A DNA stretch of 20,340 bases from a virus: the IMG/VR virus record IMGVR_UViG_3300001460_000282, positions 1 to 20,340 of that record. One strand, written 5' to 3'. The notes below the pieces were generated by a model. The model saw only the letters and a list, made by a program, of their open reading frames with translations. It did not search any database and was not told where the DNA came from. Positions within the stretch are counted from its first letter, which is position 1; each line of letters opens with the position of its first letter. Shown here piece after piece: positions 9,531-20,340 of this stretch. Made by a program: the position numbers and the translations under genes.

Positions 9531-10439
9531 ATGGCTATTTCAAGAAGTCAATTACTCAAAGAGCTACTCCCCGGACTAAACGCATTATTCGGTCTGGAGT
9601 ACGCGAAATACGGCGAAGAGCATAAAGAGATTTTCGAGACTGAAACCTCTGATCGTTCCTTCGAGGAAGAAACTAAACTGTCTGGTTTTGGCTCTGCCCC
9701 AACTAAGGCGGAAGGTTCTGCAATTGAGTATGACAATGCTCAAGAAGCATGGACTGCACGTTACACGCACGAAACCGTTGCAATGGGTTTCTCAATCACT
9801 GAAGAAGCGATTGAAGATAACTTGTATGACTCTCTGTCATCTCGTTATACCAAAGCATTGGCTCGCGCTATGGCGTACACTAAGCAGGTTAAAGCAGCGG
9901 ACATCCTGAACAATGCTTTTGCTGCTGGCAGCACTTACGGTGATGGACAGACTCTATGTTCTACTACTCACCCGTTGGTTAGCGGTGGTAACAACTCCAA
10001 CCGCCCTGCTGTTGCGGCTGACCTTAACGAAACTTCTTTGGAAGCGTCTATCATTCAGGTAGCAGGCTACACTGATGAGCGTGGTCTTCTGATCGCGGCC
10101 AAGCCTAAGAAGCTAGTTATCCCACCTTCCTTACAGTTTGTTGCAACTCGTTTGCTTGAGACTGAAGGTCGTGTAGGAACTGCTGACAACGACATCAACG
10201 CCATTATGAGCAACGGCGCTGTACCCGGCGGGTATGCAGTCAATCACTACCTGACTGACACTGACGCTTGGTTTATGATGACTGATGTACCAAATGGTTT
10301 GAAGCACTTCGTACGTAGCCCAATGGCTACCTCTATGGATGCTGATTTCGATACTGGTAACAGCCGCTACAAGGCTCGTGAACGCTACTCGTTTGGCGTA
10401 TCTGATCCTCTGGGCATCTTCGGATCGCCCGGCGCTTAA
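9531..10439 (+). CDS. Major capsid protein (HK97-fold, Mu gpT-like)
   Basis: The 302-residue protein is in the position of the major capsid gene: last of the head operon, after scaffold and decoration genes and before a strong terminator. The N-terminus is helical (SRSQLLKELLPGLNALFG). A central helical spine (YDSLSSRYTKALARAMAYTK) is followed by the TLCSTTHPLVSGGNNSN loop (141-157), a pattern I associate with gpT-type Mu-like major head proteins. The C-terminal part ends SFGVSDPLGIFGSPGA. HK97-fold subunits build the icosahedral shell. There is no N-terminal delta domain of HK97 length, consistent with use of a separate scaffold. Codon use is regular, as in a highly expressed gene. Confidence 0.9.
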   Translation: MAISRSQLLKELLPGLNALFGLEYAKYGEEHKEIFETETSDRSFEEETKLSGFGSAPTKAEGSAIEYDNAQEAWTARYTHETVAMGFSITEEAIEDNLYDSLSSRYTKALARAMAYTKQVKAADILNNAFAAGSTYGDGQTLCSTTHPLVSGGNNSNRPAVAADLNETSLEASIIQVAGYTDERGLLIAAKPKKLVIPPSLQFVATRLLETEGRVGTADNDINAIMSNGAVPGGYAVNHYLTDTDAWFMMTDVPNGLKHFVRSPMATSMDADFDTGNSRYKARERYSFGVSDPLGIFGSPGA

Positions 10440-10461
10440 CAGCGTAGTAACATGCTGTACT

Positions 10462-10485
10462 AAGGGGGCTTCGGCCCCCTTTTTT
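10462..10485 (+). terminator. Rho-independent terminator after capsid gene
   Basis: AAGGGGGC (10462-10469) pairs with GCCCCCTT (10474-10481) around a TTCG tetraloop, followed by a T-run to 10485. This is a strong intrinsic terminator 23 bases after the capsid stop. It would end or reduce transcription of the head operon and give high capsid mRNA relative to downstream genes. Confidence 0.95.
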
Positions 10486-10489
10486 ATTG

Positions 10490-10519
10490 TTGACTTAAAT
10501 ACACACACTGTGATATGTT
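10490..10519 (+). promoter_or_regulatory. Candidate promoter for connector and tail genes
   Basis: TTGACT (10490-10495, five of six consensus bases) and TATGTT (10514-10519) are 18 bases apart, with TG one base before the -10 box (extended -10 form). It lies immediately after the capsid terminator, exactly where a new transcript is needed. Visual match only. Confidence 0.55.
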
Positions 10520-10541
10520 CTGCTATATCGGGAAACAATCC

Positions 10542-10602
10542 GGTGAATCTGACAGACCCGACTGACGACATGTAGACAGATTCTCCTTAACTCACATGTG
10601 AG
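10542..10602 (+). promoter_or_regulatory. Structured 5' leader of the tail operon
   Basis: The roughly 90-base leader after the promoter candidate holds an inverted repeat. GAATCTG (10545-10551) matches CAGATTC (10577-10583), extendable by GG/CC outside one mismatch. A 12-bp perfect palindrome CTCACATGTGAG (10591-10602) ends nine bases before the next ATG. The palindrome partly covers the weak ribosome-binding region, so it could affect translation or be an operator. Confidence 0.4.
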
Positions 10603-10611
10603 AACTTTATA

Positions 10612-10821
10612 ATGGCTAAAACCACTTTTTCAGGCCCAGTCCGTTCGGATAATGGCTTTCAAATCCCTGTAGTAACTACCGCTAATCTGCCAGCTTTTGC
10701 TGACGTTGCTGTAGGCACTGCATACATGGTCAGCGATAACGGTGGCGGTAACAACGAATACTGCATCGTGATTAATACTGGCGCTGCTTGGGTAACCGCT
10801 GTAGGCGCGGCTCTTTCTTAA
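10612..10821 (+). CDS. Small beta-type virion protein, 69 aa
   Basis: The 69-residue protein begins MAKTTFSGPVRSDNGFQIPV and ends ACGAALS-like (AWVTAVGAALS). It has the feel of a small beta domain: TTANLPAFADVAVGTAYMVS followed by a CIVINTGAAW strand. Similar short domains occur in marine phages after the capsid gene, to my recollection, but no function is established. It is the first gene of the transcript beginning near 10525. A minor capsid, head-fibre or tail role is possible. The ribosome-binding site is weak and lies within a palindromic leader. Confidence 0.7.
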   Translation: MAKTTFSGPVRSDNGFQIPVVTTANLPAFADVAVGTAYMVSDNGGGNNEYCIVINTGAAWVTAVGAALS

Positions 10822-10833
10822 TAGGAGGCATCT

Positions 10834-11112
10834 ATGTCTAGTTCTGATGTTTCCGCAAAGCGGATTACTGGCGCAGGCTCGGTAGGTGTAGGGCCAGCGC
10901 GAGTAAGACAAGTACAAGTGCTGACTAACAACTCTGGTGCGGGGCGACTTACTATTACCAACGGTAACGGCGGAGCCACTCTATTAGATATTGACTTTGA
11001 GGCAAATGACTCTCATTCCGTTAACATACCCGACTATGGGGTGCGCTTTCAGGATGATGTTTATATTACTGCTTTTACCAATATCACCGCTATTACAGTG
11101 TTCTATAGTTAA
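10834..11112 (+). CDS. Small beta-sandwich-like structural protein, 92 aa
   Basis: The 92-residue protein starts MSSSDVSAKRITGAGSVGVG and ends VRFQDDVYITAFTNITAITV then FYS. Alternating hydrophobic strands (RVRQVQVLTNNSG, RLTITNG, TLLDIDF) point to a compact beta domain. I recall this family, with its NIPDYGVRF and VFYS-type ending, as a common unnamed protein in marine phages. It has a good ribosome-binding site (TAGGAGGC). Its TAA stop shares one base with the next ATG (TAATG), the first link of a coupled series of small genes. Confidence 0.72.
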   Translation: MSSSDVSAKRITGAGSVGVGPARVRQVQVLTNNSGAGRLTITNGNGGATLLDIDFEANDSHSVNIPDYGVRFQDDVYITAFTNITAITVFYS

Positions 11113-11414
11113 TGCGTAGGTACTACAAGAAAGGCGGCGGAGTGGGCATGAAAGGTATGTCCATCAGTAGTGGCGATAAACGCTCTACTAAATCCGGCGC
11201 GGGTATGACCGCTAAAGGTGTAGCTAAGTACAGGAAGAATAATCCCGGCTCTAAGTTAAAGACTGCGGTTACCGAGGATAAACCAACTGGCAAGCGGGCA
11301 AGTAGGCGTAAGTCTTACTGCGCTCGTTCCGCTGGACAAATGAAAAAGTTTCCTAAAGCGGCTAAAGACCCTAATTCAAGGTTACGGCAAGCTAGGAAAC
11401 GATGGAAATGTTAG
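11112..11414 (+). CDS. Small basic protein, DUF6321-like, 100 aa
   Basis: The protein starts MRRYYKKGGG, the shared leader of this cluster. Its C-terminal half contains GMTAKGVAKYRKNNPGSKLK (31-50), then KPTGKRASRRKSYCARSAGQ (57-76) and ends ARKRWKC. The combination of A(K)G-x-AKY, GKRA-RRKS-CAR and RWxC matches what I recall as DUF6321, seen in phages and large eukaryotic viruses; the domain number is from memory. It is very basic with two conserved Cys, which would suit nucleic-acid or virion-core binding (inference). It is translationally coupled to the gene before it by TAATG. Confidence 0.78.
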   Translation: MRRYYKKGGGVGMKGMSISSGDKRSTKSGAGMTAKGVAKYRKNNPGSKLKTAVTEDKPTGKRASRRKSYCARSAGQMKKFPKAAKDPNSRLRQARKRWKC

Positions 11415-11426
11415 GAGAATAGCACG

Positions 11427-11699
11427 ATGGATGATATGAAGACCCCAAAAGTACCTTCTAAAGAAGAGTTTGATAAGATGACTCCCGAGCAAAAAGCCGC
11501 CCGTAAGAAAGAAGCTATGATGCAGAACCTGAATATGACTCCCCAAGAGAAAAAAGCTAGGGAAGTTATGAAGAAACCCGATAAGAAAATGATGGCTGGT
11601 GGTATGGCTAAGAAGTATAAAGCTGGCGGTAAGGTTCGTGGCTGCGGTATGGCTCGTGGCGGTAGAGTTTGTAAGATGGTCAAAATGAAAGGTGCGTAA
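11427..11699 (+). CDS. Small basic Met/Lys-rich protein, 90 aa
   Basis: The N-terminal 50 residues are charged and helical (MTPEQKAARKKEAMMQNLNM, MTPQEKKAREVMKK). The C-terminus is a Gly/Met/Lys segment (KMMAGGMAKKYKAGGKVRGC, then GMARGGRVCKMVKMKGA). It shares the KAGGKVRG motif with neighbouring peptides. I recall the RGCGxAxRGxR-KMVxMKG ending as common in marine phage small proteins; no function is known. It has the only conventional AGGAG ribosome-binding site within the coupled chain, overlapping the preceding TAG stop. Its own TAA shares a base with the next ATG. Binding of DNA or of the virion interior is possible. Confidence 0.75.
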   Translation: MDDMKTPKVPSKEEFDKMTPEQKAARKKEAMMQNLNMTPQEKKAREVMKKPDKKMMAGGMAKKYKAGGKVRGCGMARGGRVCKMVKMKGA

Positions 11700-11878
11700 T
11701 GCGACGCTACTACAAGAAGAGCGATTGCGGTTGTGGCAGTAAACCCCGAAAGATGAAAGAAGGGGGCACTGTAAAAGACGCGTGCTATAAGAAGGTCAAG
11801 AAGCAATATAAGGTGTTCCCGTCAGCATATGCGTCGGGAGCTATTGCTAAGTGCCGGAAGAAAAAGGCTGGTAAGTAA
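11699..11878 (+). CDS. Small basic Cys-containing peptide, 59 aa
   Basis: This gene is below common length cut-offs and easily missed. It runs from the ATG sharing its A with the previous TAA, through 59 codons, to a TAA that again shares its last A with the next ATG. The product begins MRRYYKKSDCGCGSKPRKMK and contains YKVFPSAYASGAIAKCRKKK. Four cysteines (C10, C12, C29, C52) could bind metal. The PSAYASGAIAKCRK block is one I remember from marine phage and algal-virus small proteins. Its N-terminus repeats the MRRYYKK start of the gene at 11112. No function is established. Confidence 0.82.
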   Translation: MRRYYKKSDCGCGSKPRKMKEGGTVKDACYKKVKKQYKVFPSAYASGAIAKCRKKKAGK

Positions 11879-12180
11879 TGCGTGCGTACTACAAGTCTGG
11901 CGGTAAGATACGTAAGACAGCCAAAGGAGCCTCGTTAAAGCGTTGGTTTCAAGAGGACTGGAAAGACGTGCGTACTGGTAAGGCTTGTGGCAGAAAGAAA
12001 GGAGATGGCCGTGGTACTCCCTATTGCCGTCCTTCTAAGAGAGTATCTGAAAAGACTCCTAAGACTTCTGGCGAGATGTCTAGCGCCGAGAAAGCAAAAA
12101 AAGTAGCAGAGAAGAAAAGACTAGGACAGCCAGCAGGTAAGCCTAGGCGAGTATCAGCTACTAAGCGGAGAAAGAAATAA
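11878..12180 (+). CDS. Small basic protein, DUF5872-like, 100 aa
   Basis: It starts MRAYYKSGGKIRK, again the cluster leader. The body has LKRWFQEDWKDVRTGKACGR (20-39), KGDGRGTPYCRPSKRVS (41-57) and KTPKTSGEMSSAEKAK (59-74). The KRWF..WKDV-G-ACGR...YCRPSKRVS..TP pattern is what I recall as DUF5872, found in phages and large DNA viruses of eukaryotes; the number is from memory. Two Cys (C37, C50) and many Lys/Arg suggest nucleic-acid contact. It is joined to both neighbours by TAATG overlaps. No enzyme motif is seen. Confidence 0.78.
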   Translation: MRAYYKSGGKIRKTAKGASLKRWFQEDWKDVRTGKACGRKKGDGRGTPYCRPSKRVSEKTPKTSGEMSSAEKAKKVAEKKRLGQPAGKPRRVSATKRRKK

Positions 12181-12362
12181 TGGGTATGGGCGTTAAGCAC
12201 TACAAAAAAGACGGAAAAGAGCATAAGGGCGGTCTACATAAGATGGCTGATGGTAGTCTTCACACAGGCAAAACCCATAGCAAGACTAGCGTAAAGTTGT
12301 TCCACTATGGAGATTTGTCCAAGAAAGCTAAGGTCAAAGCTAAATCGGGGTGGGGTAAATAA
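12180..12362 (+). CDS. Small His/Lys-rich basic peptide, 60 aa
   Basis: The 60-residue product begins MGMGVKHYKKDGKEHKGGLH and contains KMADGSLHTGKTHSKTSVKL and FHYGDLSKKAKVKAKSGWGK. I recall this VKHYKKDG...HTGKTH...LFHY-DLSKKAK pattern from several marine phages, always unnamed. Seven His residues and a high Lys content could bind nucleic acid or metal. It is coupled by TAATG at both ends; the next gene is a connector-type structural protein, so it belongs to the late operon. Confidence 0.78.
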   Translation: MGMGVKHYKKDGKEHKGGLHKMADGSLHTGKTHSKTSVKLFHYGDLSKKAKVKAKSGWGK

Positions 12363-13051
12363 TGGCTACATCAGGCACTACAGCATTTGACATGGATTTC
12401 ACGGAGATCGCAGAAGAAGCGTTTGAACGTGCAGGTCGTGAGATGCGTTCTGGGTACGATCTTCGCACTGCGAGACGATCCATGAACCTGCTAACTATTG
12501 AGTGGCAGAACCGTGGTATTAACATGTGGACTATCGACGACGGCACTATTAACTTAGTGAAGGGTCAGACTACTCCTTATGATTTACCCGCAGATACTAT
12601 TGATTTATTAGAGCATCAGATACGTACGGGTAACGGTAACGCGGCTACTCAAACTGACCTTACTCTAAGCCGTATTAGTGTGAGTACTTACGCGTCTATA
12701 CCTAACAAGTTAACACAAGGTAGGCCGATACAGCTATACATAGAGCGTCTTCGTGATGCTCCTAAAGTTAACGTATGGCCTATCCCTGATAATAATGGTT
12801 ACGTGCTGTATTACTGGCGTATGCGTCGTATACAAGACGCTGGTAGCGGAGCAGAAACAGCGGATATGAACTTTAGGTTCTTCCCGTGTTTAGTAGCAGG
12901 TCTAGCGTATTACATAGCTATGAAGTTACCCGAAATGGTTGACAGAGTACCAATGCTAAAAGCCGTATACGATGAACAGTTCCAGATGGCCGCAGGAGAA
13001 GATAGAGAAAAGACTTCGGCTAGATTTGTCCCGCGTATAGGGTACGTATAA
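12362..13051 (+). CDS. Head-tail connector / tail tubular protein A-like
   Basis: The 229-residue protein has an N-terminal helical part (FTEIAEEAFERAGREMRSGY, DLRTARRSMNLLTIEWQNRG). A strand-rich middle (IQLYIERL, KVNVWPIPD, YVLYYWRMRR) follows, then a C-terminal helical part (FFPCLVAGLAYYIAMKLPEM). This alternation and the DLRTARRSMNLL.. WQNRGINMW signature resemble podovirus tail tubular/adaptor proteins (T7 gp11, P22 gp4 classes) that form the ring below the portal. Gene order after the capsid gene agrees. The exact class is inference. Its ATG overlaps the previous stop by TAATG. Confidence 0.75.
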   Translation: MATSGTTAFDMDFTEIAEEAFERAGREMRSGYDLRTARRSMNLLTIEWQNRGINMWTIDDGTINLVKGQTTPYDLPADTIDLLEHQIRTGNGNAATQTDLTLSRISVSTYASIPNKLTQGRPIQLYIERLRDAPKVNVWPIPDNNGYVLYYWRMRRIQDAGSGAETADMNFRFFPCLVAGLAYYIAMKLPEMVDRVPMLKAVYDEQFQMAAGEDREKTSARFVPRIGYV

Positions 13052-13053
13052 AC

Positions 13054-13416
13054 ATGGGTGCGCAGTTTGCCTCTAGTAAGAAGGCCATTGCTTTATGCGA
13101 TGTGTGTGGGTTTCAGTACAAACTAAAAGACCTAAAAAGTCTGGTTGTAAAGAACATAGACACTAACATAAAAGCATGTCCTGAGTGTTGGAACGAAGAT
13201 CAGCCTCAAAACATGTTAGGCGAGTTTCCAGTACACGATCCGCAAGCATTGCGTAATCCTCGCCCAGATCAAAGCCTAGGAGAGGCGGGAGTCACTAGTA
13301 GTAGGGACATACAATGGGGATGGAGTCCTGTAGGTAGAGGAGTAGACCCTTACGGTTTAACTCCTAACGCGCTACTAATTAATGGTAGTATAGGACAAGT
13401 TACAGTAACAACTTAA
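13054..13416 (+). CDS. Zinc-ribbon protein, 120 aa
   Basis: Two CxxC pairs, C15-x2-C18 (ALCDVCGF) and C42-x2-C45 (KACPECW), 23 residues apart form a zinc-ribbon-type knuckle in the first 50 residues. The rest (about 50-120) is Pro/Gly-rich and probably extended, with DPQALRNPRPDQ and IQWGWSPVG. I recall homologues between connector genes in marine podoviruses. A structural zinc site in a minor virion protein or a nucleic-acid-binding role are both possible. It starts two bases after the connector gene, with AGGGTA upstream. Confidence 0.78.
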   Translation: MGAQFASSKKAIALCDVCGFQYKLKDLKSLVVKNIDTNIKACPECWNEDQPQNMLGEFPVHDPQALRNPRPDQSLGEAGVTSSRDIQWGWSPVGRGVDPYGLTPNALLINGSIGQVTVTT

Positions 13417-13432
13417 TGGGAGTAATACCATA

Positions 13433-13615
13433 ATGCTTAAAGGCAAACAGTCTAAAATGGACAAAAACAAAGACGGCAAGATTTCTGGCGCTGACTTTAA
13501 GATGATGAAGAGTGGTGGTAAGGTAAAAGACGGCTATGCAGAAGGTGGAAAAGTTAAGGTTCGTGGTACTGGAGCTGCGACTAAAGGCTTGTACGCACGC
13601 GGGCCGATGGCATAA
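13433..13615 (+). CDS. Small basic peptide with EF-hand-like loop, 60 aa
   Basis: The 60-residue product begins MLKGKQSKMDKNKDGKISGA. D10-x-N12-x-D14-G15-x-I17-x3-D21 matches the 12-residue Ca2+-binding loop of an EF-hand or dockerin (D, N, D, G, I and a terminal acidic residue all in place). A single loop without a partner would bind Ca2+ weakly unless paired by dimerisation. The second half repeats KSGGKVKDG and EGGKVKVRG, the GGKV(K/R) motif of the basic cluster upstream. GGGAG provides a good ribosome-binding site. Two connector-type genes flank it. Confidence 0.75.
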   Translation: MLKGKQSKMDKNKDGKISGADFKMMKSGGKVKDGYAEGGKVKVRGTGAATKGLYARGPMA

Positions 13616-13618
13616 TTT

Positions 13619-14248
13619 ATGAATTACACTGAACTGAAAGCTAATATCCAAGACATCTGCGAAACTACGTTTACGGCGGATCAACTTGCTATGTTCACGC
13701 AGCAGGCAGAGCAAAAGATATATAACTCAGTTCAGATACCTGCCCTGCGGAAAAACGTTACTGGAGTACTAACCAACGGTAATAAGTACCTAAGTACGCC
13801 ATCTGATTTCTTGTGGACTTACTCTCTAGCAGTTATAGACGCTAATGGGGTCTACACTTTCTTGCTTAACAAAGACGTTAATTTTATGCGAGAAGCGTAC
13901 CCAAACCCTGCAAGTACAGGAGCGCCCAAGCATTACGCGTATTTTGATGACAACTCTTTTATTTTAGGGCCAACCCCAAATGCCGCATACAGTATGGAGT
14001 TACACTACGGGTACTACCCGCAGTCTATAGTTACGGCAAGTACTACGTGGTTAGGTGAAGAGTTTGACTCCGCGCTATTAAACGGCGCGTTAGTAGAAGC
14101 AATACGCTTTATGAAGGGCGAGCAAGACCTAGTGGCTAACTATACTAATATGTATTTGTTAGCTATGAAACAGTTAGAAAATCTTGGCGATGGTAAATTA
14201 CGTGAAGATGCATATCGTTCTGGGCAATTCAGAACTTCAGTTACTTGA
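13619..14248 (+). CDS. Phage adaptor / head completion protein
   Basis: The 209-residue protein begins MNYTELKANIQDICETTFTA followed by DQLAMFTQQAEQKIYNSVQI, a helical start. The middle is beta-rich with SDFLWTYSLAVID, TFLLNKDVNFMREAYP, PKHYAYFDDNSFILGPTP. The end is helical (FDSALLNGALVEAIRFMKGE). The order helix-sheet-helix and the ILGPTPNAAYSMELHYGYYP motif resemble adaptor proteins of the gp6/SU10-adaptor type that join portal and tail. Family name is from memory. With the gene at 12362 it would form the two stacked connector rings. No good ribosome-binding site precedes the ATG; termination of the gene four bases upstream may couple it. Confidence 0.75.
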   Translation: MNYTELKANIQDICETTFTADQLAMFTQQAEQKIYNSVQIPALRKNVTGVLTNGNKYLSTPSDFLWTYSLAVIDANGVYTFLLNKDVNFMREAYPNPASTGAPKHYAYFDDNSFILGPTPNAAYSMELHYGYYPQSIVTASTTWLGEEFDSALLNGALVEAIRFMKGEQDLVANYTNMYLLAMKQLENLGDGKLREDAYRSGQFRTSVT

Positions 14249-14259
14249 GGAATTAAAAA

Positions 14260-14700
14260 ATGGCTATATCGCAGGCAATGTGTACTTCTTTTAAAATCGC
14301 TCTGTTAGACGGAGAGATGGACTTTAGTAGTAACACAGGACAAACTTTTAAGATAGCACTATATACGAGCAGTGCTACACTAGGCGCAAGCACTACCGCT
14401 TACGCTACAACTAACGAGATAGCTAACGGTAATGGGTACACTACTGGCGGCTACTCCTTGACCATAAGCACGAATCCTACAAATGGAGGCAGTGGTACTA
14501 CAGCTTTCCTAGATTTTGGTGACGCTGTCTGGCCTAACGCTACTATTACTGCTCGTGGCGCACTTATCTACAAATCAGGCGGTGGTAATCCCTCTGTCGC
14601 GGTACTAGATTTTGGAGCAGACAAAACGTCTACTTCGGGTGACTTTACAGTGCAGTTCCCTGCTGGCGACGCTACCAACGCTATTGTACGCATAGCATAA
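14260..14700 (+). CDS. Beta-rich putative structural protein, 146 aa
   Basis: The 146-residue protein starts MAISQAMCTSFKIALLDGEM and has an all-beta pattern (QTFKIALYTSSATLG, TITARGALIYKSGG, VAVLDFGADKTSTSGDFTVQ, ending AIVRIA). I recall it as a very widespread unnamed virion protein in marine phages, lying near tail and fibre genes. Tail-associated or fibre-attachment role is inferred from its place between connector and fibre genes. Ribosome-binding site GAGGAA is well placed. No cleavage or enzyme motif is seen. Confidence 0.75.
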   Translation: MAISQAMCTSFKIALLDGEMDFSSNTGQTFKIALYTSSATLGASTTAYATTNEIANGNGYTTGGYSLTISTNPTNGGSGTTAFLDFGDAVWPNATITARGALIYKSGGGNPSVAVLDFGADKTSTSGDFTVQFPAGDATNAIVRIA

Positions 14701-14711
14701 GGCGTTAAAGA

Positions 14712-15491
14712 ATGCCGTCTTCTGTTACATACTCTGGATGGGGTAACGGTGCGTGGGGACAAACCTCTTGGGGTACTGACTTAACAGCAGTAATACCTGA
14801 TGGAGTAGTAGGAACCATAGCGGTAGGCTCAGTAACTATACTAGCGGGTATTACGGTATCCGTTACTGGAGTAGTAGGCACAGCTACTCTGGGCACTGTT
14901 ACAACCGATGCTGACTCTGTTGTCATCGAAACAGGACTTACAGGCACTACTGCCGTAGGAAGTGTAGCAGTAGTAGGTAAGGCAGCATTTGCGGTTACTG
15001 GAGTATCGGGAACGGCCTCACTAGGCACAGTAATAGTAAGAATACCTAAAGTAGTGCCTGTTACGGGGTTAGCGGGAACAGCCTCAACTGGTACAGCAAC
15101 GGTACAAGCTAAAGCAGTAACGGAAGCTACAGGGGTAGTGGGAACGGTCTTATTAGGTACGGCGATAGCCAGACTACCTAAAGTAGTACCTGTTACAGGG
15201 CTGGCGGGAACGGCCTCATTAGGAACTGTGTTTGTAGCCTTCGGGCAGACAGTATCGGTGACAGGAGTTGAGGGCACTGTAGCCCTAGGCACTGTAGATG
15301 TTAGAATACCTAAGACAGTATCAGTAACAGGTGTTTCTGCTGTAGGATATACAAGTACTATAAATATGTGGGGGCTAGTTAATACCACACAGAACCCAAG
15401 CTGGGGAAATGTAAATGACGCACAGAACCCAAGCTGGGGAAATGTAAATGACGCACAGAACCCTAACTGGACAAACGTAATAGCCGCATGA
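14712..15491 (+). CDS. Repeat-built fibre-like protein, 259 aa
   Basis: The protein has three parts. Residues 1-23 are Trp/Gly-rich (YSGWGNGAWGQTSWGT). Residues 32-207 are eight consecutive 22-residue repeats, each with GT-x3-GT/S-V near the start and a VTG ending. The C-terminus has three 11-residue repeats with QNPSWGNVND. The 22-residue regularity suggests a beta-solenoid or trimeric beta-rod, as in phage fibres. It lies between virion proteins and the main tail fibre, which makes a tail or fibre role likely; I have no experimental parallel. Its Trp-rich termini resemble the start of the next protein (GSWGDVVNNN), which may mark a shared interface. Confidence 0.72.
   Translation: MPSSVTYSGWGNGAWGQTSWGTDLTAVIPDGVVGTIAVGSVTILAGITVSVTGVVGTATLGTVTTDADSVVIETGLTGTTAVGSVAVVGKAAFAVTGVSGTASLGTVIVRIPKVVPVTGLAGTASTGTATVQAKAVTEATGVVGTVLLGTAIARLPKVVPVTGLAGTASLGTVFVAFGQTVSVTGVEGTVALGTVDVRIPKTVSVTGVSAVGYTSTINMWGLVNTTQNPSWGNVNDAQNPSWGNVNDAQNPNWTNVIAA
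14805..15332 (+). repeat. Eight tandem 66-bp coding repeats
   Basis: Eight units of exactly 22 codons follow each other without a gap (residues 32-207 of the protein starting at 14712). Units begin VVGTIAVGSV, VVGTATLGTV, LTGTTAVGSV, VSGTASLGTV, LAGTASTGTA, VVGTVLLGTA, LAGTASLGTV and VEGTVALGTV, and seven of them end in VTG or ETG. Units 4-5 and 6-7 resemble each other as pairs (both PKVVPVTGLAGTAS), pointing to a 44-residue duplication. A ninth, partial unit (VSAVGY) follows. Confidence 0.92.
15388..15486 (+). repeat. Three tandem 33-bp coding repeats
   Basis: Units at 15388-15420 and 15421-15453 are identical over 33 bases; the third (15454-15486) is diverged. They encode TQNPSWGNVND, AQNPSWGNVND and AQNPNWTNVIA at the C-terminus of the repeat protein. 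Identity of the first two units implies recent duplication or ongoing copy-number change. Confidence 0.92.
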
Positions 15492-15501
15492 GGCCAATTA
15501 A

Positions 15502-17340
15502 ATGACAACGCAATATACTTCAATACTTAAACTTGCATTACCAGTTCAAGGCGAGCTTAGTGGTTCTTGGGGTGATGTAGTAAATAACAATATCACCTCT
15601 ATGGTGGAGCAAGCTGTCGCAGGCCGTGCGGTAATTAATACGTGGTCTGGGAACTCACATACGCTAACCAGCGCAAACGGGACTACTTCCGAATCAAGAT
15701 GTGCGATGCTAGAGTTTACCGACACAGGTACTCAGCTAACTGGCGCAGGAACTGTAGTATGCCCCACAGCTACTAAAATATACATCGTAAAGAATGCCAC
15801 TGGGCAGAGCGTAACGCTTAAAACATCCGGTGGTTCGGGGATTCTTGTCCCTAACGGACGCACTATGTTCTTGTTCTGCGATGGAACTAACGTAGTCGAA
15901 GCACTAACTAGCACAACATCCTTACAGTTAGGTACTAGCACTGTAGTAACGGCGGTACTAGACGAAGACAATCTAGGGTCAAACAGCGCCACATCTCTCG
16001 CCACTCAACAGTCTATTAAAGCATATGTAGACTCTCAAGTAGGTGCCGCAGATACATTAGCAGAAGTCCTTGCCCTTGGTAACACTACGGGGGGTACGAA
16101 CATTGTAGTATCTACTAACGATGAGCTTGTGCTACCTGACGGTGCAGAGGGCGCACCCTCTCTCACAAACACTGGCGACACTAACACAGGTATTTACTTT
16201 GGCGCTGCTGATACGGTAAGTGTTACTACTGGCGGTACTAAACGACTGGATGTAAACAGCGCAGGTATTTCTGTAGTAGGTACAGCTTCCGGTACTGCCC
16301 TAGCCGCTACAGGTACTTCCGCAGTCCAAGTGTCGGTGGGTACTACAGCTCAACGACCAGCAAACGGCGCAGGTCAGTTTCGATACAACTCTACGCTAGG
16401 TAAGTTTGAGGGTTACACGACAGAATGGGGCGAAATCGGCGGCGGTGCTGCTGAGTTACTCCTTAATCAGTTTACAGGTAATGGCTCTACAACTGCCTTT
16501 ACTATGTCTTCTTCACCAGTAGAAGCTAACACGCTTGTATATATTGACGGTGTTTACCAGAACAAAACGGCATACTCCGTTGCTAACGACGTTATAACGT
16601 TCTCAGCCGCTCCAGCAAACAATGCGGCTATCGAAGTTACAGCGGCTACAGTAGCCCCCGCAGAGGCTCCAACTACGTTCTCCCTTAGTCAGTTTACAGG
16701 TAATGGCTCTACAACAGCGTTTACTCTGTCATCTCAATCAGTAGAGAACAACACTGACGCTTACTTTGACGGTGTGTATCAGTCTAAAAGCAACTACACA
16801 GTATCTGGAACTACTATTACTTTTAGTACGGCTCCCGCAAACGGTGTAGCTGTCGAGGTAATGGCTTCTCAGGGCGTTAGCGTAAGTATAGGTACCCCTG
16901 ATAACAATACCGTCACAACGGCTAAGATAGTAAATAGCGCGGTTACAACGGCTAAGATAGCAGATGATGCAGTTACTGCCGCCAAGATCGCTGACGACGC
17001 AGTAGTTGCAGCCGCTATCGCAGATGATGCCGTAGGAGCAGCCGCAATAGCTTCTGACCCTATAGCTGTAGGAATAACCACAACAGTTACAAGTAGTAAC
17101 ATAACTGCTACAGTAAACACACATGTATACGTAGATACGGCTAGTCGAACTATTACTTTACCTGCTTCTCCTTCTATAGGGCAACGGGTGTTAATAACTG
17201 TAGGTAACTTCACAGACACAGTAGTAGGGCGAAACGGATCAAACATTATGAGTAGCGCATCTAACATGACATTAGATTCTGCGTACCTCTCAATTCAATT
17301 TATGTATACAAACTCTACAGTAGGATGGGCAATGACATGA
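15502..17340 (+). CDS. Tail fibre protein, 612 aa
   Basis: This 612-residue protein is Thr/Ala/Gly/Ser-rich with many predicted beta strands. The N-terminus (SILKLALPVQGELSGSWGDV, 7-26) is one I associate with fibre attachment ends in marine podoviruses. Mid-region motifs include RYNSTLGKFEGYTTEWGEIG, common in fibre shafts. Two 74-residue units starting QFTGNGSTTAF follow. Then come five 10-residue stem repeats (AVTTAKIADD type). A tip domain (about 541-612) contains RTITLPASPSIG and VVGRNGSNI. It should bind or present the host-recognition tip. The stop overlaps the next start (ATGA). Its tip domain recurs in two downstream genes, which marks it as part of a repeated cassette. Confidence 0.85.
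   Translation: MTTQYTSILKLALPVQGELSGSWGDVVNNNITSMVEQAVAGRAVINTWSGNSHTLTSANGTTSESRCAMLEFTDTGTQLTGAGTVVCPTATKIYIVKNATGQSVTLKTSGGSGILVPNGRTMFLFCDGTNVVEALTSTTSLQLGTSTVVTAVLDEDNLGSNSATSLATQQSIKAYVDSQVGAADTLAEVLALGNTTGGTNIVVSTNDELVLPDGAEGAPSLTNTGDTNTGIYFGAADTVSVTTGGTKRLDVNSAGISVVGTASGTALAATGTSAVQVSVGTTAQRPANGAGQFRYNSTLGKFEGYTTEWGEIGGGAAELLLNQFTGNGSTTAFTMSSSPVEANTLVYIDGVYQNKTAYSVANDVITFSAAPANNAAIEVTAATVAPAEAPTTFSLSQFTGNGSTTAFTLSSQSVENNTDAYFDGVYQSKSNYTVSGTTITFSTAPANGVAVEVMASQGVSVSIGTPDNNTVTTAKIVNSAVTTAKIADDAVTAAKIADDAVVAAAIADDAVGAAAIASDPIAVGITTTVTSSNITATVNTHVYVDTASRTITLPASPSIGQRVLITVGNFTDTVVGRNGSNIMSSASNMTLDSAYLSIQFMYTNSTVGWAMT
16468..16890 (+). repeat. Two 74-residue fibre repeats
   Basis: CAGTTTACAGGTAATGGCTC and the six bases after it occur at 16468 and again at 16690, a period of 222 bases (74 codons). 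Each unit encodes QFTGNGSTTAFT, then Y(I/F)DGVYQ-K-Y and ITFS-APAN. The repeat boundaries after about 16890 are approximate. This is a shaft domain duplicated in frame. Confidence 0.82.
16909..17058 (+). repeat. Five 30-bp stem repeats
   Basis: Five in-frame 10-residue units read TVTTAKIVNS, AVTTAKIADD, AVTAAKIADD, AVVAAAIADD and AVGAAAIASD. This pattern is typical of narrow trimeric fibre stems. Related units open the partial fibre gene at 19958 (DAVTAALIADDAVGSAAIAD) and, in a degenerate form, the gene at 18434. Confidence 0.88.
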
Positions 17341-18125
17341 GTAATTTTACAGACTTTATAGGTGGCGGCGGTGGTTCTCTACCAGTAAACATAGCATTAA
17401 CTGAATCACAAACATGGGTTCCACCCGTTGATGGAAACATTTGTATTCATGTTATTGGCGCTGGTGGCGGCGGTGTCGGCTCTACTGGCGGTGGCGGTGG
17501 TGGTGCTGGTGGGTATTGCAAAAAGAACTCTTTGGCTGTCACTACCTCTGGCTCTTTTACAGTTGTTATAGGTTCAGGAGGATTAGGCTCTACGAATAAC
17601 GCGACTGCAAGCAACGGAGGCAACTCAACAGTTGCTGGTACAGGGCTGTCAGCCACGCTAACCGCTAACGGCGGTACTGGCCCTGCAACGAATGCTAACG
17701 GGCAGGGAGGGACAGCATCTAATGGCGATGTAAATAATACTGGTGGTCAAGGCGGCTGGTATGGCGGCGGGGCAGTAGGCGTGTATAGGTCTAATAGTTC
17801 TAACTCTCAAACCGGACAACGTGGAGCTGGTGAAAGTTCTGATGCGCTGGGTGACCCCGCCCTGATGGGTTATGGTTATATAGTCGGAGGCCAAGGCGGT
17901 AAGACTTTTAACGGCGAAAGTGACTACTCAACAGTTGGAATGCACGGAGGGTTTTTAGCTGGCGGTGGCTCAGCTTGGGGAGGAGGCGCTGCGTACCAAA
18001 GTTGGGGCGGTGACGGTGGCGTAGGAGGTGGCGGGGGAATGGGCTACAAAACTAGCAACACTAATTCTGCTTTTGGCGGTACTGGTGGTGACGGCATCGT
18101 AATTATCCAATACCTACCAGCATAA
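17337..18125 (+). CDS. Polyglycine-rich tail adhesin, copy 1
   Basis: The 262-residue protein has a conserved start (TESQTWVPPVDGNICIHVIG) followed by many Gly-rich runs. GSFTVVIGSGG and STVAGTGLSATLTANGG come next, then a Gly/Asn/Ser-rich variable centre (about 140-215), and the end is GGDGIVIIQYLPA. Long Gly runs are used in phage adhesins such as S16 gp38, where polyglycine-II helices display variable loops; that analogy is inference. The ATG at 17337 overlaps the preceding fibre stop (ATGA) and has AGGATGG upstream, so it is preferred to an ATG at 17325. A diverged second copy lies at 18818. The next gene is a chaperone-like partner. Confidence 0.8.
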   Translation: MSNFTDFIGGGGGSLPVNIALTESQTWVPPVDGNICIHVIGAGGGGVGSTGGGGGGAGGYCKKNSLAVTTSGSFTVVIGSGGLGSTNNATASNGGNSTVAGTGLSATLTANGGTGPATNANGQGGTASNGDVNNTGGQGGWYGGGAVGVYRSNSSNSQTGQRGAGESSDALGDPALMGYGYIVGGQGGKTFNGESDYSTVGMHGGFLAGGGSAWGGGAAYQSWGGDGGVGGGGGMGYKTSNTNSAFGGTGGDGIVIIQYLPA

Positions 18126-18135
18126 GGAGAGAAAA

Positions 18136-18432
18136 ATGAAATACAAAATTAAAGATGCTGACGGAAACGTCACAAACACTATAAAAGCTAGTGCTGAGTT
18201 TGTTGAAGCTAACTTTGAACACTATGAACTGTATGTTGAGCCTACATCAGCAGAGCCTACAGTAGCAGAAGCTGGCCGCATGTGGCGTGATATGGAACTA
18301 TCCTCTTCAGACTACATAGTCCCTCTGTCAGACCATCCACAACGTGCAGCTTACATGACCTACCGTACAGCTTTGCGGGATTGGCCCTCTACAGATGCAT
18401 TCCCTGCAACTAAGCCGGAGTTAGGAGAATAA
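18136..18432 (+). CDS. Tail fibre assembly-type chaperone, copy 1
   Basis: The 98-residue protein begins MKYKIKDADGNVTNTIKASA. Its C-terminal half has GRMWRDMELSSSDYI, then YRTALRDWPSTDAFP. The WRD-EL-xxDxx...YRxALRDWP pattern is that of small phage tail assembly chaperones (Phage_tail_APC type, from memory), which are often encoded straight after a fibre or adhesin gene. It is probably the folding or attachment partner of the adhesin upstream. AAGGAG lies at ideal distance. A paralogue of the same length, identical at about 65 of 98 positions by eye, is at 19660. Confidence 0.78.
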   Translation: MKYKIKDADGNVTNTIKASAEFVEANFEHYELYVEPTSAEPTVAEAGRMWRDMELSSSDYIVPLSDHPQRAAYMTYRTALRDWPSTDAFPATKPELGE

Positions 18433-18433
18433 T

Positions 18434-18817
18434 ATGTCAGTAACTAAAGTAAGTAGTACGCTGCTTGCAGATAACTCTGTTACAGCCGTAGCTATTCTTG
18501 ATGGTACTATTACCTCTGCCAAGTTAGGCGCAGGCGTAGGCGGAGCATTCAACAACTTTTTAATAAAGACAGCAGACTACACCGCAGTTACACGCGATCA
18601 GATAATCGTAAACAGCGCAAGTGCTAGAACGATTACACTGCCCGCAAGTCCCGCAGCAGGGAACGTAGTATTTATAAAAAACGCTGGTGCAGGTGTTGTA
18701 ACCGTGGGGCGTAATGGCTCAAACATTAATTCAACGGCAGATAACGGCTCACTGGCGACAGACGCTGGTGCAACTCTTGTGTACGTTGATTCAACAATCG
18801 GATGGAAGGAGCTTTAA
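18434..18817 (+). CDS. Short fibre stem/tip protein, 127 aa
   Basis: This 127-residue protein is like the C-terminal part of the large fibre at 15502, detached as its own gene. Stem-like units (LADNSVTAVAILDGTITSAK) are followed by the tip domain SARTITLPASPAAGNVVFIK and VVTVGRNGSNI, ending VDSTIGWKEL. The large fibre ends in the matching RTITLPASPSIG, VVGRNGSNI and NSTVGWAMT. It may co-assemble with the fibre or replace its tip. It begins one base after the chaperone gene, with GGAG upstream, and its end carries AAGGAG for the next gene. Confidence 0.8.
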   Translation: MSVTKVSSTLLADNSVTAVAILDGTITSAKLGAGVGGAFNNFLIKTADYTAVTRDQIIVNSASARTITLPASPAAGNVVFIKNAGAGVVTVGRNGSNINSTADNGSLATDAGATLVYVDSTIGWKEL

Positions 18818-19648
18818 ATGGCTATTAAATTAGGCGGGGGTGGCTCTGCGTCATTCCCTACAATATTTTTAAGCAAATCCCAGACATGGGTTCCACCACA
18901 GGACGGCAACATAATGATTCATGTCATTGGCGCTGGTGGTGGTGGCCGTGGTTGGGATTCTTATACGACTAGTGGTGCTGCTGGTGGCTATTGCAGAAAA
19001 AACTCTTTAGCTGTAACTACCTCTGGCTCTTTTACAGTTGTCGTTGGAGCAAGTGGCGCTGGCGGTGCAAACGGCAGAGGTAATAGTGGTCAAGGAGGCA
19101 CTGGAGGAAACTCAACTGTAGCAGGCACTGGGTTGTCGGCTACTCTAACGGCTAACGGGGGTGCAGGGGCGGCAGGTTCTAATGGCGCATCGGCCGCATC
19201 AGGAGGCACAGCCTCAAATGGGGATGTAAATAACACAGGTGGTGCAGGGGGGGTTGCTTGGGGCGTATACGGTGGTGCTGGCGGTGGCGCAGTGGGGCTT
19301 ACAGGGACAGGGCAAGCAGGTACTGTTGGTAATTCAGACATTCCCACAGCGGGAGAATGTGACATTATTGGAGACTTGTGGTCATCTACAATAGGTCAAA
19401 TAGCTGGCGGCATAGCTGGGCGCTGTATTAGAAAGACTAGTGGCACAGTACCTTATGACGCTGTCAATGGCGGCCCACTATCAGGCGGAGGCGGTGTTTT
19501 ATTTAATACAGGCAGTGAGATGCTGGTGCAAGGCGGTGCTGGAGGCATTGGTGGCGGTGGGGGTGCAGGCGAAAACAGGGGCCACATCTCATCATCTTTA
19601 GGTGGTGAAGGCGGTGAAGGTCTTGTTGTTATCCAGTACATCCCATAA
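18818..19648 (+). CDS. Polyglycine-rich tail adhesin, copy 2
   Basis: The 276-residue protein is a paralogue of the adhesin at 17337. Matching blocks include KSQTWVPPQDGNIMIHVIGA, NSLAVTTSGSFTVVVG, NSTVAGTGLSATLTANGG, GGTASNGDVNNTGG and the ending EGLVVIQYIP. The stretch between (about residues 145-250) is not alignable by eye to copy 1 and carries its own CDIIGDLWSSTIG and Cys-containing segments. Conserved ends around a divergent centre are what would be expected of a receptor-binding protein under diversifying selection. Its ribosome-binding site AAGGAG overlaps the previous stop. Phage-adhesin function is inferred. Confidence 0.8.
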   Translation: MAIKLGGGGSASFPTIFLSKSQTWVPPQDGNIMIHVIGAGGGGRGWDSYTTSGAAGGYCRKNSLAVTTSGSFTVVVGASGAGGANGRGNSGQGGTGGNSTVAGTGLSATLTANGGAGAAGSNGASAASGGTASNGDVNNTGGAGGVAWGVYGGAGGGAVGLTGTGQAGTVGNSDIPTAGECDIIGDLWSSTIGQIAGGIAGRCIRKTSGTVPYDAVNGGPLSGGGGVLFNTGSEMLVQGGAGGIGGGGGAGENRGHISSSLGGEGGEGLVVIQYIP

Positions 19649-19659
19649 GGAGATATGAA

Positions 19660-19956
19660 ATGAAATACAATATTAAAGATGCTGATGGAAACATAACAAA
19701 CACCATCACTGCTGACGCTGAGTTTGTTGAAGCCAATTTTGAACACTATTCGCTTTGGGTAGCACCTACACCTGTAGAACCTACAGCAGAAGAAGCTGGG
19801 CGTACATGGCGCAATGGTGAGTTAGATGCTACAGATAGAGCAGCAGAGATATCTGACTGGCCGAACCGTGACAACATCCTGACCTACAGGACTGCATTGC
19901 GTGACTGGCCTGCTACTGACGACTTCCCAGATACGCGACCGACTTTAGGAGAATAA
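19660..19956 (+). CDS. Tail fibre assembly-type chaperone, copy 2
   Basis: This is a 98-residue paralogue of the protein at 18136, identical at about 65 of 98 positions by eye. The first 29 residues and the YRTALRDWP segment are the best conserved; the middle (SSDYIVPLSDHPQ against ATDRAAEISDWPN) is the most diverged. The second copy keeps the canonical TD-x-ISDW spacing of tail assembly chaperones. It follows adhesin copy 2 by 11 bases. A strong AAGGAG ribosome-binding site precedes the ATG. It probably serves adhesin copy 2 specifically, because chaperone and adhesin have diverged together. Confidence 0.8.
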   Translation: MKYNIKDADGNITNTITADAEFVEANFEHYSLWVAPTPVEPTAEEAGRTWRNGELDATDRAAEISDWPNRDNILTYRTALRDWPATDDFPDTRPTLGE

Positions 19957-19957
19957 G

Positions 19958-20340
19958 ATGCCTCTAACTACGATAAAGACAACGGGGGTTACAGACGACG
20001 CTGTCACGGCTGCGTTGATAGCTGATGATGCTGTTGGTTCTGCCGCGATTGCAGATGGTGCTGTAGGTACGGCTGCTTTAGCATCTACTATAGCCGCTGG
20101 TATTCCTACGGCAACGGTAAGCAGCAACGGCAATGCAACAGCTAACACGCATCATTACGTTGGCACTGCTGGCGTAACGCTAACGCTTCCAACGCCCACT
20201 GTAGGCATGAAGGTGTACGTCACTGTAGGTAACTTTGTAAACACCGTGGTTGGTCGCAACAGTAGCACCATTGTAGGACAATCTTCAGACTTAACAATTG
20301 ATGTGGCTAACATGAGCATTGGTCTTATTGGCATATCAAC
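19958..20340 (+). CDS. Fibre stem/tip protein, third copy, partial
   Basis: The gene opens at the ATG at 19958 with GGAG upstream and stays open to the end of the window (127 codons seen). It begins MPLTTIKTTGVTDDAVTAAL, with stem units (IADDAVGSAAIADGAVGTAA) and then a tip domain with GVTLTLPTPTVG, VTVGNFVNTVVGRNSSTI. It most resembles the C-terminus of the fibre at 15502, which has TVGNFTDTVVGRNGSNI. It starts the third stem/tip element of the repeated cassette; whether an adhesin and chaperone follow is not visible. Confidence 0.85.
   Translation, partial: MPLTTIKTTGVTDDAVTAALIADDAVGSAAIADGAVGTAALASTIAAGIPTATVSSNGNATANTHHYVGTAGVTLTLPTPTVGMKVYVTVGNFVNTVVGRNSSTIVGQSSDLTIDVANMSIGLIGIS

Follow-up and report, generated by a model that had tools for sequence, protein, structure and literature searches.

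The window analysed here is the complete 20,340-base-pair (bp) IMG/VR record IMGVR_UViG_3300001460_000282, a fragment of the genome of a tailed marine phage, and its last quarter carries an array in which a stem, an adhesin and a chaperone (an S-A-C cassette) recur in tandem from the end of a tail fibre onwards. The window virus has exactly three such cassettes. We lean, with some reserve, towards reading the array as a branched receptor-binding apparatus of modular build that has three tips, in which docking, receptor binding by the adhesin heads and joint display of the tips are presumed. The proposal is built on gene order, cassette completeness, stem classes, matching and covariation between parts, exchange breakpoints, purifying selection, N-terminal tags and repeat counts, all read from the sequences.

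The array forms one plus-strand run from 15502 to the window end, in the order fibre, A1, C1, S2, A2, C2, S3, and its junctions are, in order, an ATGA overlap and gaps of 10, 1, 0, 11 and 1 nucleotides. An earlier interpretation made from these letters alone (the sequence-only reading) had described two cassettes, a third stem and tight junctions, and both its order and its coordinates hold. Stems in slots 2 and 3 are referred to as satellites; cassette 3 is completed from a second contig, L002. The features are as follows (aa, amino acids; E, expectation value).

15502-17340, plus strand: primary fibre (slot 1), 612 aa; PHROG 892 tail fibre; no MALTKV tag
Fibre residues 1-133: N-terminal region, probable virion anchor; matches fibre proteins of HTVC027P, HTVC023P and relatives
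16468-16653, plus strand: fibre repeat 1 (residues 323-384), candidate satellite socket; repeat found by hidden Markov model (HMM)
16690-16875, plus strand: fibre repeat 2 (residues 397-458), candidate satellite socket; HMM repeat
17083-17337, plus strand: class-5 stem/tip, the last 85 residues of the fibre C-terminus; from clustering of 197 stem tails
17337-18125, plus strand: adhesin A1, 262 aa, starting within the fibre stop codon (ATGA); PF21722 Gly_rich_2, E = 6e-12
17337-17363, plus strand: docking-like peptide MSNFTDFIG at the A1 N-terminus, of class-5 type; the type fits the stem class, and similarity to contig L083 drops just beyond it
18136-18432, plus strand: chaperone C1, 98 aa; PF16778, E = 2e-8; PHROG 37968 and 4628
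18434-18817, plus strand: satellite stem S2, 127 aa, class 1 by stem clustering, tag MSVTKV; identical (100%) protein in L083/L084
18818-19648, plus strand: adhesin A2, 276 aa, N-terminal peptide MAIKLGGGG (class-1 type); PF21722, E = 1e-13
19660-19956, plus strand: chaperone C2, 98 aa; PF16778, E = 1.5e-6
19958-20340, plus strand: satellite stem S3 of class 4 with tag MPLTTI, truncated at the contig end; full length (134 aa) at L002:10299-10703
L002:10703-11545: A3, 285 aa, after the complete S3
L002:11558-11860: C3, 100 aa, then unrelated non-fibre genes including an M15 peptidase

L002 comes from a different metagenome and is 99.97% identical to window positions 9660-20340 over 10,681 bp, and thus represents the same virus; on these grounds an assembly artefact was rejected. 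The sequence-only reading had made its cassette model depend on an adhesin and a chaperone following 19958, and the model stands because L002 continues with a complete S3, A3 and C3. Each cassette gene has its own ribosome-binding context or a coupled start. The last chaperone codons (LGE-stop) at 18421-18432 and 19945-19956 both read TTAGGAGAATAA, whose AGGAG, at the chaperone 3' end, can act as a ribosome-binding site for the next stem. Stem-adhesin fusion and programmed frameshifting were rejected, as none of 235 glycine-rich adhesin open reading frames (ORFs) is fused to a stem; class-1 stem/adhesin junctions, mostly TAA followed at once by ATG without overlap, also count against a frameshift.

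Both chaperones pass the PF16778 Phage_tail_APC gathering cut-off of 26.6 bits (C1, 34.1; C2, 28.4), as do chaperones of a shorter type described below, and both adhesins pass that of PF21722 Gly_rich_2 (24.3 bits; A1, 46.5; A2, 52.0). Sequence searches of the PDB with adhesins and chaperones gave nothing convincing. The predicted A2 model (pLDDT, predicted local distance difference test, 89.8) has residues 1-9 disordered, followed by poly-glycine, and in a fold search its best PDB match was the Pam3 fibre 7ypx_A (E = 1e-7; template modelling scores 0.50/0.55), with tail-tip chains of phage Bxb1 and ALK/LTK TG domains ranking next. The earlier term 'polyglycine adhesin' is therefore roughly right, although the best match is a head that is tumour necrosis factor (TNF)-like as well as glycine-rich. 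The C2 model (pLDDT 90.4) comprises an N-terminal beta domain (residues ~1-32) and a helical core (~43-82).

To place the array in context, four viral-contig scans were pooled into a comparison set of 188 distinct S-A-C triples from metagenomic viral contigs, whose loci were grouped by shared identical proteins into 146 populations. Arrays in this set carry one to four chaperones, bearing out the copy-number variation that the sequence-only reading suggested looking for. Three main stem classes (5, 1 and 4) can be told apart; they are old and common to many viruses. At the two-class level, stem and adhesin N-terminal type agree in 187 of the 188 triples, the sole exception being an adhesin start, MAAVIG, that resembles the class-1 start. 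Class-5 adhesins begin mostly with SNF[TS]DF, apart from a few that resemble MTAISTLIS, and class-4 adhesins with SNLTDLIS or similar. The adhesin bodies are glycine-rich or of other types: all 127 glycine-rich bodies precede a long chaperone, and 54 of the 61 others precede a short chaperone lacking the N-terminal domain (the remaining 7, other N-termini).

Distance correlations on the 146 dereplicated triples couple the stem with the first nine adhesin residues (rho 0.81) and the adhesin body with the chaperone N-terminal half (rho 0.79). The body correlates less with the chaperone core (rho 0.47) and little with the stem (rho 0.20), and the first nine residues are nearly uncoupled from their own body (rho 0.25). 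This pattern delimits three apparent natural units with borders inside genes, namely the stem plus adhesin N-terminal peptide, the adhesin body plus chaperone N-terminal half, and the chaperone core. That the chaperone N-terminal half follows the adhesin body also agrees with the dedicated chaperone per adhesin proposed previously. The sequence-only reading did not see that the unit of exchange straddles genes, that the adhesin start fits its stem, or that stems after the first have a docking-like tag in common.

The same borders are seen in natural exchanges. Adhesin bodies that share 96% identity are found on stems of class 1 and of class 5 with just 35% identity between them, and in either case the adhesin has the peptide proper to its stem class. 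In a piecewise alignment of the window with L083, similarity is lost just past the docking peptide, near 17358 in A1 and near 18838 in A2, and is regained at the chaperone, from ~18120 for C1 and inside the conserved core for C2; an A1 border near 17671, from a first megablast alignment, was discarded in favour of the piecewise placement. L084 compared with the window has natural exchange borders as well. Poly-glycine codons sit exactly at the upstream border, and the associated parts adjoin in the DNA, which is what would be expected if the stem/peptide and body/chaperone associations reflected DNA linkage and recombination hot spots (glycine codons, the conserved chaperone core) rather than protein contacts. 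We consider this explanation improbable, given that the peptide is kept on non-homologous bodies and switches with the stem class, and that both borders lie inside genes and not at gene ends. Separately, a 360-bp stretch across S2 (18419-18778) has 100% identity with L083, the flanking conserved DNA being roughly 77-92% identical, a sign of recent transfer of this stem.

Similarity between the cassette copies is far above chance. C1 and C2 are identical at 65 of 98 positions (E = 2e-49), confirming the two-thirds likeness noted earlier; the N-terminal halves of A1 and A2 match at 60% (E = 6e-24), and the fibre end matches S3 at 57% (E = 8e-35) and S2 at 36% (E = 9e-15). The sequence-only reading had suggested that a module duplicated and then diverged. 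Repeated three-part cassettes are indeed present, but their local duplication is not borne out: the stems of the window virus score 0.95-1.00 against counterparts in other viruses versus 0.26-0.48 within their own array, and the chaperones 0.88, 0.91 and 0.68 versus 0.49-0.66. A recent tandem duplication was rejected on this basis, every window stem and chaperone having a closer relative in another virus. Plain local tandem duplication with later divergence would account for the repeated gene order and the 66% identity of C1 and C2, but not for these closer relatives nor for stem classes common to many viruses, and is scarcely credible. An ancient duplication likely lies behind the stem classes.

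First and later stems are built differently. The first stem of an array is long (median 425 aa), and first-stem N-termini are of many unrelated kinds; stems from slot 2 onwards are short (median 124 aa), lack an anchor domain and carry a MALTKV-like N-terminal tag in 60 of 64 cases, versus 3 of 48 first stems. A further 36 distinct ORFs directly 3' of a chaperone, not scored as stems, start with such a tag, pectate-lyase tailspikes among them. At L039:10299-11975 and L023:10299-11741, tagged pectate-lyase-like tailspikes take the place of a satellite stem.

The missing anchor, together with the clear movement of adhesin bodies between slots, would also suit a reservoir, in which cassettes 2 and 3 mainly store extra heads for recombination into the primary fibre, with no joint display of the heads. 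This is highly improbable in view of the selection on these genes: ratios of non-synonymous to synonymous substitution (dN/dS) between viruses are 0.00-0.30 for S2, S3, C1, C2 and A2 (A1 against L006, 0.65), and by this measure the satellites are maintained genes under purifying selection. Class-specific adhesin starts would moreover be pointless in a store, the satellite stem classes differ from that of the primary fibre, and each gene has the translational start context described above.

The two ~60-aa fibre repeats lie in a region that matches PDB 7y22_e, a 'tail adaptor protein' (E = 6e-13), with weak Pfam matches to DUF2460/DUF4183. Three counting rules were applied to the prediction that repeats equal satellites in number. 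In the first count, repeats equal tagged satellites in 37 of 46 arrays (rho 0.62). Looser satellite detection gives agreement in 34 of 45, compared with 14 by shuffling and 22.5 by shuffling within anchor families. When all repeats in an array are counted, a rule chosen after nested exceptions had been seen, the numbers agree in 35 of 44 (rho 0.89) and satellites never exceed repeats. L143:8906-10348 and L172:6152-7762 encode tagged satellites (480 and 536 aa) that each carry two socket repeats, which suggests nested branching. The primary fibre of L112 (694 aa) has five repeats and is followed by at least four tagged genes.

A somewhat unlikely alternative is that each satellite has its own attachment to the tail, perhaps at an adaptor ring, by the MALTKV-like tag, the cassettes being otherwise as proposed. 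The tag is common to very different proteins, and distant two-repeat fibres often have only one tagged gene after them, both of which would fit such attachment; the fibre repeats, however, track satellite number across and within anchor families and resemble a solved tail adaptor (7y22_e), which argues for sockets on the fibre.

Stem classes are also arranged non-randomly. Neighbouring stems in 54 arrays share a class in 4 of 71 cases, where shuffles give 23-24, and in loci found by chaperone queries only, 3 same-class neighbours were observed versus 13.5 expected (P < 5e-5). The window virus has the order 5-1-4, one of each. We read this avoidance as orthogonality: identical stems would presumably compete for heads, and identical sequences would presumably recombine.

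In the branched apparatus that we favour, slot 1 would be the fibre, with a probable virion anchor of its own, a class-5 stem at its end and two repeats serving as sockets. The short, anchorless satellite stems of slots 2 and 3 would attach through their common MALTKV-like tag, most likely by its docking to the two fibre repeats. Each stem (classes 5, 1 and 4) would hold its own adhesin through the class-specific first ~9 residues, a peptide that would dock head to stem and prevent heads from docking on the wrong stem, leaving the TNF-like plus glycine-rich body to bind the host surface. The variable N-terminal half of each chaperone may recognise the adhesin body and so select and fold its own head, with the conserved helical core driving assembly, as in Pam3 gp24/gp25. 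Evolution would then swap an adhesin body together with the N-terminal half of its chaperone, the edges of the swapped piece being conserved, and heads could in this way move among stems, slots and viruses. The several receptor-binding proteins per virus claimed by the sequence-only reading are present as three cassettes; that all three tips are displayed simultaneously on one virion is what we infer. More tentatively, the arrays may follow a two-level plug-and-socket code: orthogonal stem-peptide pairs (three main classes, as a rule at most one of each per array) and tagged satellites seated one-for-one in repeat sockets, with nested trees in some viruses, heads with a matching chaperone half being interchangeable between slots and viruses.

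Several observations weigh against this picture. A Foldseek search with the C2 model returned no significant match, Pam3 gp25 included, and the best repeat-to-satellite agreement depends on the counting rule adopted after the event. The hold-out for stem and peptide is small: the two match in 9 of 12, and the other 3 are distant stems that belong to none of the classes, with no cross-class pairing; stem and peptide adjoin in the DNA, and linkage with glycine-codon homology could yield part of their association. Among the distant fibres used as a further hold-out, which were retrieved by means of the repeat, 9 of 11 have tagged genes after them but the counts agree in only 2 of 11. The one-to-one socket rule is thus unsupported in distant fibres; because of these two results, the repeat-tag association is, by gene counts, supported more widely and the one-to-one rule in the array group only.

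Elsewhere the window encodes a terminase, a portal, a major head protein and two SU10-type adaptors. The last are separate genes (12362-13051 and 13619-14248), each matching the SU10 adaptor family PF24175, an unusual pair of paralogues. The nearest relatives of the terminase, at ~45%, are those of phage 023Pt_psg01 and pelagiphages HTVC027P and HTVC023P. Upstream of the fibre, 14712-15491 encodes a 259-aa protein of degenerate VTGVxGTaxLGTV repeats ending in repeated NPSWGNVNDAQ units; it has no match in Pfam, and its antisense frame is open too. A search for the same arrays in cultured phages gave a single weak chaperone match among 50,697 records; HTVC023P, 023Pt_psg01 and CRP-2 have distant stem matches, and in the annotated HTVC023P and CRP-2 regions the cassette order is not recognisable. 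Two cassettes built on the same logic occur at L241:6697-12663; this contig bears the label of a gammaproteobacterial assembly (AG-333-E20) and may be a virus recovered along with the cell. It was the sole relative in a genome-collection search for the host, which is insufficient to name one.

If the proposal is right, phages could exchange host-range parts cleanly, since heads would plug only into matching stems. The arrays bear on a practical question, namely how a phage can carry more than one receptor-binding protein and still assemble them correctly, and at which points recombination in nature cuts such proteins. They offer many aligned natural domain swaps whose borders are clear, one past the first nine or so adhesin residues and one inside the chaperone. 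From these it can be predicted directly which part of a tail chaperone selects the client protein, and how heads and stems would dock orthogonally. The cassette scheme also accounts for a large number of fibre genes of uncultured marine phages that have lacked annotation. Branched receptor-binding proteins (RBPs) docked by peptides, joint transfer of fibre and chaperone, and chaperones of two domains are already known; in the open-access literature we found neither tandem S-A-C arrays nor a stem-class code described, most papers behind subscription lying outside the search.

Invertible tail-fibre cassettes of the Mu/P1 type hold alternate fibre-chaperone copies in opposite orientation, whereas all copies in the window and L002 lie on the same strand in one run. 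Host-recognition genes are a hypervariable part of marine phage genomes, as described for metaviromic islands (PMC3909814), a paper that does not describe a cassette structure, a chaperone or a docking code. In Alteromonas phages V22/A5, fibre and chaperone with covarying inserts have been exchanged jointly between unrelated marine phages (PMC10579305); unlike the window cassettes, these are single modules with DUF4376 chaperones and no separate adhesin. The long tail fibre of S16 is capped by a separately encoded glycine-rich adhesin (gp37-gp38; PMC6957217). According to the account in PMC9608196, gp38 is attached through three helices at its N-terminus and its middle domain is a beta-helix; it is present in one copy, in contrast to the window adhesins; A2 lacks the helical N-terminus, and gp38 (6F45) is not among the 50 PDB matches listed for it.

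Ackermannviridae join up to four RBPs in a branched tail-spike complex through dedicated domains (PMC11414711). The plurality of RBPs is alike, and branching is proposed for the window virus too, but the Ackermannviridae complex uses XD/TD domains and has no S-A-C cassettes. In Klebsiella phages and G7C, an anchored RBP bears docking domains to which secondary RBPs attach via short conserved N-terminal peptides of 7-29 aa (PMC6872550). Window-type arrays share this short conserved peptide on secondary proteins and its absence from the primary one, as the tag counts above indicate. The Klebsiella/G7C proteins, however, are for the most part depolymerase spikes and lack separate genes for adhesin and chaperone, and their docking domain is T4gp10-like, the window fibre repeat looking different.

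Another close parallel is the cyanophage Pam3. Its chaperone gp25 binds the fibre head with a non-conserved N-terminus and trimerises through a conserved helical C-terminus (PMC9608196; PDB 7ypx). The layout of the C2 model, a variable N-terminal beta domain and a helical core, agrees with this, albeit without a significant Foldseek match, and the A2 model has the TNF-like plus glycine-rich fold of Pam3 gp24 in common. The N-terminal helical baseplate-docking domain of the Pam3 fibre is missing from A2, in whose model ~9 disordered residues and poly-glycine, with no helix, take its place. Pam3 has one fibre encoded by one gene with its own docking domain, whereas the window virus encodes head and stem in separate genes, three times over, with class-specific head starts.

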